From assembly GCA_945877865.1 (NCBI GenBank), contig CAMDVX010000004.1:1-35732 (forward strand): a DNA stretch of 35,732 bases. The letters are read 5' to 3'. The stretch is from Bifidobacterium breve. Its GTDB lineage: Bacteria; Actinomycetota; Thermoleophilia; Gaiellales; F1-60-MAGs149. The position numbers and the translations under genes were made by a program. How positions within the stretch are numbered: the stretch's first letter is position 1; every line of letters begins with the position of its first letter. A model generated the notes under the pieces. It did not search any database, had not been told where the DNA came from, and saw only the letters and a program-made list of their open reading frames with translations. Positions 8,256 through 14,886 of this stretch are shown here, in pieces.

Positions 8256-10478
8256 GTGGGTCATACGACGCGGACGACGATCATCGCTGCGACCGGCCAA
8301 CCACGGTCACTCGGCGCCTCGACACTTGCATTCACACGTGTGCTGACATACGGTCACGTTCAGATGTCCGTTCCGTTGCCCACTCGCCTTCACATAGTCG
8401 TCACAGGCCGCTGCGACAGCAGCGTCATCCGCTCGCAGCGGGACCGACCAGCGTCAGGCCTCGCCGGTCAGAAGCTGCCATGGGGCTCAGCCCGCAGGCT
8501 GGCCACTTCCGCTTGCCGGAGCCACCTGCGCCTAGCGCTGCTGGCGTGCCTCGGCCTGCTGCTGCTGCCCAGCGTGGCGGCAGCCTCAGCCGGGGACACG
8601 TGGACGAGCCGCACGACGCCCGCCGACAGCAACTGGGACGACATTACGTACGGCAGCGGCACCTTCGTCGCCGTCGCCGGGTCAGGCGCGGGCCATCAGG
8701 TGATGACGAGCACGGACGGCATCACCTGGCTAACCCAAGCCACCCCCGTCGACAACCTCTGGTCTGGTGTGACCTACGGTGAGGGCAGCTTCGTCGCTGT
8801 CTCAGCGTCGACGAGCGGCAACCGGGTGATGACGAGCCCCGACGGCACCACCTGGACCAGCCAGGCCTCGGCCGACGACAACTTCTGGACGTCCGTTGCC
8901 TATGGCGAGGGTACCTTCGTGGCCGTGGCTCAGACCGGAACCAATCGGGTCATGACCAGCACCGACGGCGTCACCTGGACGAGCCAGACCGCGGCCGTCA
9001 ACAACGACTGGATCGACGTCACGTACGGCAATGGCCTGTTCGTCGCCGTCGCCAGCACGGGCACGGGCAACCGCGCGATGTGGAGCAACGACGGCATCAG
9101 CTGGACCGCCAGCACGACGCCAGCAGACAGCCTGTGGGCCGGCGTGACGTTCGGCGAGGACACCTTCGTCGCCGTCGCCCAATCGGGGACCGGCCAGCGA
9201 GCGATGACGAGCCCCGACGGCGTCACCTGGACCCTGCGCTCGACCCCGGCCGACAACAACTGGTTCGACGTGACGGACGGCGACGGCGTCTTCGTCGCCG
9301 TGGCCATGACGGGAGCCGGCAATCGCGTGATGACGAGCCCCGACGGCATCACGTGGACGATCGGCGTGACGCCCGCCGACAACAATTGGCGTGGGGTCGT
9401 CTACGGCGATGGGCTGTTTGCCGCCGTCTCGCTCAGCGGCACGGGCAACCGCGTGATGACGTCGGGCGAGCTGATCCCGCCGGCGGAACCGGTCACGTTC
9501 ACCTCGGCTCCACCCGAGACGACCGTGTTCACGTCCGCCGAGTTCGAGTTCTCTGCAGGCGCTGCCACCTCCTTTGAATGCCACCTCAACGACCGCGACT
9601 GGGAGCCGTGCGCCTCCCCCGAGACGTTCACTGGGCTCCACAAGGGCGACAACGTCTTCAGCGTCCGCGTAGCCGCGGCGGCCGAGCAGTACGACTACGC
9701 GTGGACGATCGCGGCCGCGGCGCCCAGCGGCGACGAAGAGAACCACCTGAAGGCCACCGTCTCGGCGACGATCCGAGTCGCCCCGCTCCCGCGTCGCCAC
9801 GGCGCGCTCGGCACGAGCGTCGGCTGTGCGGTCACGGGCGACCTCGTCCTCGAGTCGTGCGTCGTCGACCTCTATGCGCCGCGTCGGGTGCTCGCCGGCA
9901 CGGGCCATGGGCTCGAAGTGTCCTTGCCCCGCCAGCGGCTGGTCAAGATTGGCACCGGTAGGTTCAAGGCAAAGGACGCCACGACTCGGAAGGCACAGGT
10001 CGTCGTGCTGCTCAACGGCACGGGGCGTCGAATCCTCGGCGCCAACCTCAATGGCTTTCCCGGCACGGTTGTCGTACGGGGGTTTCCGAAGGACGCCCTC
10101 GGGCTGACCATCACCCGCTCGACCCGCTTTCGCCCGCCTGCCCACGTCGTCGCACCAGCCGACGGCCTGTTTAGCAGTGGCTCGGCCACGCTGTCGGGCA
10201 CCGGCCAGACGTTCATCGCGTCGATCGCGCAGATCATTCCAAAGCGCATCAAGAGCCTCGCCTGCGTCGGCTTCACCGACAGCACCGGCTCGACTGCGGC
10301 GAACGACCTCCTCGGCCAGCAGCGTGCCGAGGTCGTCTGCGCCGCGCTTGCCGCCGCGGGCATCACGGCCCGCTCCACCGAAGCGACGTCGGCAGGCGAG
10401 AGCCACCCACGTGCCACCAACGCTACCGCCGCGGGCCGAGCCCTCAACCGGCGCATCGCCATCACCATCAGGTACTAG
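8256..10478 (+). CDS. Secreted beta-propeller-like repeat protein with C-terminal OmpA-like domain; start uncertain
   Basis: Signal-like LRLALLACLGLLLLPSVAAASA, seven approx. 42-aa repeats, FECHLNDRDWEPCASPETFTGL Ig-like segment, C-terminal SLACVGFTDSTGSTAANDLLGQQRAEVVCAAL...GRALNRRIAITI (OmpA-like). True start may be 8364 or an internal codon. Confidence 0.85.
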   Translation: MGHTTRTTIIAATGQPRSLGASTLAFTRVLTYGHVQMSVPLPTRLHIVVTGRCDSSVIRSQRDRPASGLAGQKLPWGSARRLATSACRSHLRLALLACLGLLLLPSVAAASAGDTWTSRTTPADSNWDDITYGSGTFVAVAGSGAGHQVMTSTDGITWLTQATPVDNLWSGVTYGEGSFVAVSASTSGNRVMTSPDGTTWTSQASADDNFWTSVAYGEGTFVAVAQTGTNRVMTSTDGVTWTSQTAAVNNDWIDVTYGNGLFVAVASTGTGNRAMWSNDGISWTASTTPADSLWAGVTFGEDTFVAVAQSGTGQRAMTSPDGVTWTLRSTPADNNWFDVTDGDGVFVAVAMTGAGNRVMTSPDGITWTIGVTPADNNWRGVVYGDGLFAAVSLSGTGNRVMTSGELIPPAEPVTFTSAPPETTVFTSAEFEFSAGAATSFECHLNDRDWEPCASPETFTGLHKGDNVFSVRVAAAAEQYDYAWTIAAAAPSGDEENHLKATVSATIRVAPLPRRHGALGTSVGCAVTGDLVLESCVVDLYAPRRVLAGTGHGLEVSLPRQRLVKIGTGRFKAKDATTRKAQVVVLLNGTGRRILGANLNGFPGTVVVRGFPKDALGLTITRSTRFRPPAHVVAPADGLFSSGSATLSGTGQTFIASIAQIIPKRIKSLACVGFTDSTGSTAANDLLGQQRAEVVCAALAAAGITARSTEATSAGESHPRATNATAAGRALNRRIAITIRY
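8598..9476 (+). repeat. Seven tandem approx. 126-bp (42-aa) in-frame repeats encoding propeller blades
   Basis: Consensus TWTSxxTPADNNWxDVTYGxGxFVAVAxxGTGNRVMTSPDGI; lengths 42,42,41,42,42,42,42 aa counted from the translation. Confidence 0.92.
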
Positions 10479-10636
10479 CCGTCGTGCCAACGGCGCGCCC
10501 GGCTCGGCTAAGCGGAACCGCTGCAGGCAAAACAGCCAGCGTTCGACCGAAGCGACCCGTGCTTCCTCCCAGGTTCTCCGCATCAGTCACGGGGTGCTGA
10601 CGCTGCGTGACGGGCGGATCGAGCCGGCGACGGACG

Positions 10637-13610: not shown

Positions 13611-14042
13611 CAGCGTGTCCGAAAGCCAGACGCAATCGGACAGCGTGTCCGAACGGGCTCCGAGGCGGGTGATGGCGTGTCCGAAAGGGGCCAGACCCCA
13701 ATCGGACAGCGTGTCCGAAAGGGGCCAGACCCCAATCGGACATCTGCACGTCGGCAAATGGGTAACTCGCACGCTATGGGCAGATGTCCGATTGGGGTCT
13801 GGCCCCTTTCGGACACGCCATCACCCGCCTCTCGCCCCTTTCCGACACGGCGTAAGTTCGGGGTCTGATTTCCAATACGCCTTCCACTTGGGGTCTGCTT
13901 TCGGACACGCTGTCCGTTTGGGGTCTGGTCCCTTTCGGACAGGCCGTCACCCGCCTCGGGCCCCTTTCCGACACGCCGTCCGTTTGGGGTCTGCCCTTTT
14001 CCGACAATCCCACCCCATGGAGTCTGGCTCTCCATCGGACAA
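13611..14042. repeat. Composite REP-like palindromic repeat cluster
   Basis: Copies of TGTCCGAAAGGGGCCAGACCCCAATCGGACA and degenerate variants at 13616-13642, 13678-13708, 13712-13742, 13785-13815 (rev), 13881-13910 (rev, partial), 13911-13941 (rev), 13977-14006 (rev), interleaved with a second unit (approx. 13643-13676, 13816-13848, 13942-13974). Confidence 0.9.
13709..13818. repeat. Perfect approx. 39-bp inverted repeat with approx. 32-nt loop
   Basis: Left GCGTGTCCGAAAGGGGCCAGACCCCAATCGGACATCTGC (13709-13747); right GCAGATGTCCGATTGGGGTCTGGCCCCTTTCGGACACGC (13780-13818), exact reverse complements. Confidence 0.92.
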
Positions 14043-14286
14043 TCAATCTCATACGTTCCCTTTGCCGACGAACACCGCTCCGCTTGTCGACAGACACCGT
14101 TACGACATTGCATACGTCTGTTGTCCAAATCGAGTCGAAAGAAGACCGCTGCGGTCCCGTCGACCCGTGATCGGTGAGCTCTCGATCGGGTCCCTCTTGA
14201 TCCGGAAGCCGAGACCCGCCAACGCCCGGTCTGGCTGCGGTGGACCGATCCGCCATTCGTCGGCTAGGGACTTGACGCGTCAGCCC

Positions 14287-14312
14287 TCGCCCCACGTCAC
14301 CACGTGGGGCGA
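14287..14312. repeat. Perfect 11-bp inverted repeat, 4-nt spacer
   Basis: TCGCCCCACGT-CACC-ACGTGGGGCGA. Confidence 0.85.
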
Positions 14313-14493
14313 CGCGACTCGGCAGCAGCGTGGCGCCGGTGGCGAGGTCTTTGCAGGCAGAGAACAGGTCTGCGGATACCTCAACCAGCGCCGGATTGAG
14401 GTCGGCAAGGTGCTCGTTGTCCAACCACGATTGATCGTCAGGCGGAAGCTTCAGGAGCATGGGATCGTCCACTGTCTCGTCGCTCATCTGCCG

Positions 14494-14607
14494 GACGGCA
14501 GCTGCGTCGCAGGGGCTTAGACAGCCGGGAAGCTTCGGCTCCATCTCCCCGACGGCAGCTGCGTCGCAGGGGCTTAGGCAGCCGGGAAGCTTCGGCTCGA
14601 TCTGCCG
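14494..14607. repeat. 57-bp direct tandem duplication
   Basis: GACGGCAGCTGCGTCGCAGGGGCTTAG(A/G)CAGCCGGGAAGCTTCGGCTC... at 14494 and 14551; period 57 bp (19 codons). Confidence 0.9.
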
Positions 14608-14886
14608 GACGAGCCCGTCGAGCGGATCACCGCTGGTCCGGACCGGGTCGAGCAGGAAGCCGAGCCGCACGGGTGTACGGTGCTGCCGCGGAGCGTTCGG
14701 TCCAGCACCACGGGTTGAGGGGTCTCAGCGTGTTCGTATGTGCTGCGACCTCCATGCGGGATCTCAACCTACGCGACGACCTGCGTTTTCGGTGTGCGCC
14801 TCGCGGCGGGGCTCCCCGCGGTCGTGCAGAGGCTCGACGGTCAATCATGGGCAGGAGCACCGTGCACGGGTGGTACGATCGACGCG

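Follow-up and report, generated by a model that had tools for sequence, protein, structure and literature searches.

How does a cluster of mirrored palindromes come to lie in a bacterial genome, and is it a local curiosity or one copy of a dispersed family? The question is raised by a repeat cluster at positions 13611-14042 of the window (the whole stretch of DNA analysed, 35,732 nucleotides), which is contig C4 of G000, a 1.49-Mb MAG of 114 contigs with 83% completeness. Sequence and complementarity analysis of the window confirmed the cluster. Its heart consists of two inverted 31-nt imperfect palindromes (13712-13742 and 13785-13815) flanking a 42-nt spacer (13743-13784, TCTGCACGTCGGCAAATGGGTAACTCGCACGCTATGGGCAGA), which is conserved and recurs in other clusters of the genome. 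Read outward, the left palindrome gives TGTCCGATTGGGGTCTGGCCCCTTTCGGACA on the minus strand, and the right one is a perfect 31-nt copy on the plus strand. The entire REPIN-like dimer (13709-13818) has arms of 39 nt (13709-13747 and 13780-13818) that are 100% complementary and enclose a 32-nt loop. This agrees with the preliminary description of this DNA, which had placed a centre near 13763 and had given the two sides opposite polarity. The same description had presented the 31-bp unit as self-complementary and able to form a hairpin. The palindrome does fold as single-stranded DNA (-11 kcal/mol, z = -5 versus shuffles; for the dimer, -57 kcal/mol and z = -15), but its self-complementarity is imperfect: a 7-bp stem is followed by a 2x2 internal loop, a 4-bp stem and a 5-nt loop.

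From the dimer, units of ~30-34 bp extend both ways with strong ~30-bp tandem periodicity, and in every unit the GGGGTCTG strand reads outward. As had been noted before, the 31-bp unit is repeated and some copies are degenerate. The motif is perfect in three copies, on the plus strand at 13678-13708 and 13712-13742 and on the minus strand at 13785-13815; a fourth copy (13911-13941) carries 2 mismatches, and further copies (13616-13642, 13860-13897, 13986-14003, and 14011-14041) are shortened or diverged. No 31-nt copy arose in 100 dinucleotide shuffles of the window. Taken in the outward direction, the left array lies on the minus strand and runs from a first unit with a still perfect palindrome (13678-13708) through a copy of a second unit, B (CGCCATCACCCGCCTCGGAGCCCGTTCGGACA, 13646-13677, with a relative on contig C93), to truncated and decayed units (13611-13645). 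On the plus strand, the right array starts with another copy of unit B (13816-13847) and continues with two decayed ~30-bp units (13848-13910), the near-complete palindrome with its 2 mismatches (13911-13941), a third copy of unit B (13942-13973), and decayed outer units (13974-14041). The three copies of unit B, described earlier as a separate repeat of about 33 bp, are real and 32 nt long; because unit B shares its ending (CCCCTTTCCGACA) and its place in the period with the 31-nt unit, sequence comparison identifies it as a diverged form of that unit and not an independent element. Nor do the units alternate in orientation: those on the left all point one way and those on the right all point the opposite way.

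The cluster lies upstream of an ALDH gene, within a long gene-poor stretch. In an empty-site comparison of the ALDH locus, the orthologues of the genus were 82-88% identical and had no upstream synteny. An ORF on the minus strand (13774-14670) with weak similarity to pyrophosphatase, whose reading frame continues into the repeats, contains a 57-bp tandem duplication (14485-14611) and is probably a decayed gene. Elsewhere in the window, a 126-bp tandem repeat (8597-9389, about six copies) falls in a 593-aa ORF (8802-10583, minus strand) with no Pfam match. At gathering score, no named RNA family except a tRNA was found in the window.

A genome-wide search for the units, suggested in the preliminary description, was decisive against a purely local duplication: BLAST returned 48 matches in ~20 clusters of the MAG. 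The exact core plus arm (GGGGTCTGNCCC..TCGGACA) was present at 34 sites, versus 0 for the reversed control. A test for intergenic bias had also been suggested, and family copies do sit between genes throughout the genome; the genes flanking the checked clusters are ordinary ones, for aldehyde dehydrogenase, alcohol dehydrogenase, ribosome recycling factor, arginase, a luciferase-like protein, PriA, Cpn60 and an aminotransferase. The core-to-core distance is 68 nt in four complete dimers, with the spacer conserved. Most clusters (~19) reach contig ends, which could be taken as a sign that repeats of another organism had been joined to G000 contigs during assembly or binning. We consider such an artefact highly improbable, since identical dimers make an assembler stop and hence place clusters at contig ends, since the end of C10 and the start of C18 overlap within a second type of dimer spacer, and since the internal clusters on C4, C36, C46, and C10 are flanked by genes and a sister subfamily is present in same-genus genomes.

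G000 contains a second stem family (AGCTTTGCTTTGGGGTCAG) with 47 copies (reversed control 0), which also forms tandem arrays, mostly at contig ends (C16, C20, C33, C34, C35, C46:11966-12096, C52, C96, C99 and others); it matches the outer stem flanking transposases in the same-genus genomes G006 and G009. Unrelated intergenic tandem repeats with periods of 52, 63, and 81 adjoin palindrome clusters (L079:165-322, L087:183-362, and L090:299-514), and this genome seems prone to minisatellites.

Centre units, recognised by their spacer (GCAGATG, GCAGGTG or GCCGGTG), differ sharply from array units. Genome-wide, and with A or T allowed at one position, the palindrome is perfect in 19/19 centre units versus 10/84 array units, and the inner-stem GCCCC is retained in 16 of the 84 array units. 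For the dimers themselves, comparisons were based on 5-6 complete examples. Their arms are 99.5% paired over 39 arm pairs in six dimers; across these six, four pairs have changed, always at both partners and never at one alone, and the pattern of pairing and co-variation is lost when the arms are shifted by 1-3 columns. The symmetry reaches beyond the arms: the 8 nt that adjoin the dimer on its left and right mirror each other in 5/5 clusters for which both sides are known (34/40 identities), a value reached by 2/120 permutations, and mirror similarity over the full 130-nt arm is weak (reached by 9/120), the permutations in both cases ignoring kinship among clusters. Template switching between the arms of imperfect inverted repeats is treated as an established mechanism in two earlier papers (PMC7202029, PMC8604942), and would yield such co-varying, mirrored arms.

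We then asked how far the family extends among relatives. The exact motif was found in 0/84,980 genomes of other species and nowhere in IMG/VR, in scans that may omit records very near to G000. A sister subfamily (TGTCCAGATGGGGTCTGGCCCCTTCTGGACA) is present in 5/12 same-genus genomes (control zero), often as dimers 60 nt apart, and compensating changes (AGA/TCT against GA/TC) set its outer stem apart from that of the window. The core alone (GGGGTCWGRCCCC) occurs in 58/101 genomes of the order with up to 264 copies per genome, compared with 0-2 for the reversed pattern. GGGGTCWG forms 54 tandem direct repeats in G000 and 16 in G002, against 0-1 in each remaining genome of the genus, so that the growth of arrays is not a genus-wide trait. 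One site is common to G006 (L228), G009 (L216), and G010 (L207). At another, G009 (L179, G009:C1) has a dimer and G010 (L174, G010:C10) a single perfect palindrome, suggesting collapse of a dimer to a monomer. In G008, a palindrome with ~48 nt of flank is duplicated 1071 bp apart (L219, G008:C111, at 1501 and 2572), which looks like a palindrome that moved along with its flank; the gene between these two TGTCC-type copies was considered as a transposase and rejected, being by eye a TerC-like membrane protein.

The genus copies are intergenic and often directly follow a stop codon (L207, L222, L228, L173, and L206). This placement, and hairpin folding well above that of shuffles, would suit palindromes kept as RNA or DNA signals (terminators, stabilisers of mRNA 3' ends or supercoiling sites), with their spread being secondary. 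We regard this explanation as unlikely, given the position of the window cluster (upstream of ALDH, in gene-poor surroundings), the fast decay of the arrays with distance from the centre, and the three same-genus genomes that live without the core.

The preliminary description had also suggested looking for a linked RAYT/Y1 transposase. No match to Y1_Tnp (PF01797) or to the A1-type transposases described below was found in the incomplete MAG G000, and a genus-trained transposase profile gave none there at E <= 10; the same profile gave 17 matches in 8/12 same-genus genomes. In these relatives such a link was found: the same core lies beside REP-type Y1 transposases. The seven closest transposases from same-genus genomes were aligned (A1). 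They have a Y1_Tnp domain, with a C-terminal HTH_17 in 7/7 and HTH_23 in 6/7, and they match TnpA_REP (PDB 4er8, E = 1e-4) as well as NCBIfam REP_Tyr_transpos, the latter below its cut-off; judged from their sequences, they fit the description of TnpA_REP subclass 2.1 / TIRYT. All seven are bracketed by palindromes or dimers on both sides, which carry the GGGGTCWG core in 6/7; at L099 the flanking palindromes have the GGTGCCWGGCACC variant. G009 encodes two transposases that differ in their outer stem, and copies of either stem are scattered elsewhere in that genome. A transposase flanked by the TGTCC-stem subfamily was found in none of the genomes examined. Within the genus, A1-type transposases occur in 8/10 genomes with core repeats versus 0/3 without them (Fisher 0.035); order-wide, Y1 presence and core abundance are weakly associated (p 0.02-0.25 depending on the threshold). 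For G000, the cognate gene may lie between two repeats, on a short contig left out of the bin, the smallest G000 contig encountered being 5.2 kb, or may equally have been lost from the genome.

Other REP-type transposases of the genus adjoin different palindromes, some of them on both sides, and represent further transposase-palindrome pairs (L237, L240, L245, L246, and L248). At L240, CCAGAATGTCGCC around GGGCCCGGGCCC stands beside the transposase, and at L237 the neighbour is GGACATGACAA.

Could the repeats nevertheless be a plain intergenic minisatellite that spread by slippage and recombination alone, with a transposase never involved? The tandem structure of ~30 bp is strong, G000 itself yielded no transposase match, and its contigs carry other, unrelated tandem repeats. 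We find this quite unlikely all the same: ~20 unlinked sites have the perfect 31-nt palindrome and the conserved spacer in common, and in same-genus genomes the core is found in untandemised dimers and monomers beside Y1 transposases.

Among known systems, the closest is TIRYT, an HUH/Y1 transposase with a C-terminal HTH and inverted flanks that share GGGGWSAS (Di Nocera et al. 2013, PMC3733652); some TIRs of TIRtrons/TIRYT are self-complementary and dispersed, in dimers or groups (PMC3733652). TIRYT has been equated with TnpA_REP subclass 2.1 (PMC6006769). Same-genus relatives carry GGGGTCAG, which matches GGGGWSAS at 8/8 positions, whereas the window unit (GGGGTCTG / GGGGCCAG) matches at 7/8. 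Among genomes of the genus, core copies that have other outer stems show the arrangement of Y1 plus C-terminal HTH between inverted elements; no such gene was seen beside a TGTCC-stem copy. The window family further differs from TIRYT in its tandem mirrored arrays and in a genome without a detected transposase. The family likely belongs to the TIRYT system, an assignment that for the window stem is a candidate one. In a 2018 survey, REP-like sequences were not found near subclass 2.1 genes (PMC6006769), whereas in the present genomes the core is shared by families with copy numbers in the tens to hundreds.

The window family resembles REPINs (PMC3116915, PMC8049555) in having its palindromes as an inverted pair around a conserved spacer; the pair is dispersed between genes as one unit and is linked to a RAYT in relatives. 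It differs from them in sequence, in having no GTAG tag, in the subclass of transposase, and in a dimer embedded in arrays; a cognate RAYT was not detected in the 83%-complete MAG. With enterobacterial REP/BIME it shares intergenic clusters and imperfect palindromes with an internal-loop stem, and as short imperfect palindromes with many dispersed intergenic copies its units are REPs in the broad sense. The flanks of full palindromes (CGC, AACCC, AACTGACC and the like) bear no GTAG or CGTC tag, so the family is not REP in the strict sense, and it is not BIME because its orientation does not alternate. Of the earlier comparison with BIME/REP, the REP likeness survives in the genome-wide, intergenic distribution and the link of the core to REP-type Y1 transposases in the genus, while BIME alternation is not supported, the centre being a REPIN-like dimer from which arrays of uniform orientation run outward. 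A CRISPR or integron array is disfavoured, as the spacers are not unique and the units are palindromic and decaying; a viral or plasmid origin was also considered, and the exact motif was absent from IMG/VR, the collection scanned for it. The exact sequence was matched neither in the collections scanned nor in the literature searched, and both the sequence family and the mirrored-array shape appear undescribed. The preliminary description had left it undecided whether the family is described; its core lies near the published TIRYT motif GGGGWSAS (PMC3733652).

We consider it probable that the cluster belongs to a lineage-specific REPIN-like family, which was seeded by a subclass-2.1 transposase and then grew into mirrored tandem arrays via replication slippage and template switching. 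The founding unit would be an inverted hairpin pair, i.e. a REPIN-like dimer of ~110 bp with the core GGGGTCTGGCCCC. An HUH/Y1 TnpA_REP of subclass 2.1 / TIRYT would probably recognise the hairpins of this unit as single strands and spread it in trans, with the copies settling in intergenic sites. In G000, most dimers would then have expanded locally, with replication slippage copying half-units of ~30-34 bp outward to the left and right. Quasipalindrome correction, in which the template switches from one hairpin arm to the other, would preserve the mirror identity of the arms and of the flanks next to them within a cluster, while the outer array units would decay. We infer the mobilisation by a TIRYT-type transposase, both the slippage and the template switching, and the loss of the cognate transposase from the MAG or the genome.

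A more active role of the dimer is conceivable, though doubtful. TnpA_REP-type nicking or fork stalling at the 39-bp hairpin might lead to snap-back copying, by which half-units are added beside the centre on both sides at once. If so, the clusters would expand from within, each preserving its own growth history in time order and in mirror symmetry.

Under the preferred reading, in which a transposase seeded the dimers and slippage with template switching built the arrays, subclass-2.1 / TIRYT transposases are now linked to a superfamily of dispersed palindromes that share the core GGGGTCWGRCCCC and have outer stems that change fast. Matched transposase-stem pairs within one genus, such as the two in G009, make it testable whether recognition proceeds through the outer stem or the core. 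The mirrored tandem expansion of a REPIN-like dimer is unusual; the mirrored arrays account for where the G000 assembly breaks into contigs, and offer a natural record of palindromic-repeat expansion and of the upkeep of symmetry.
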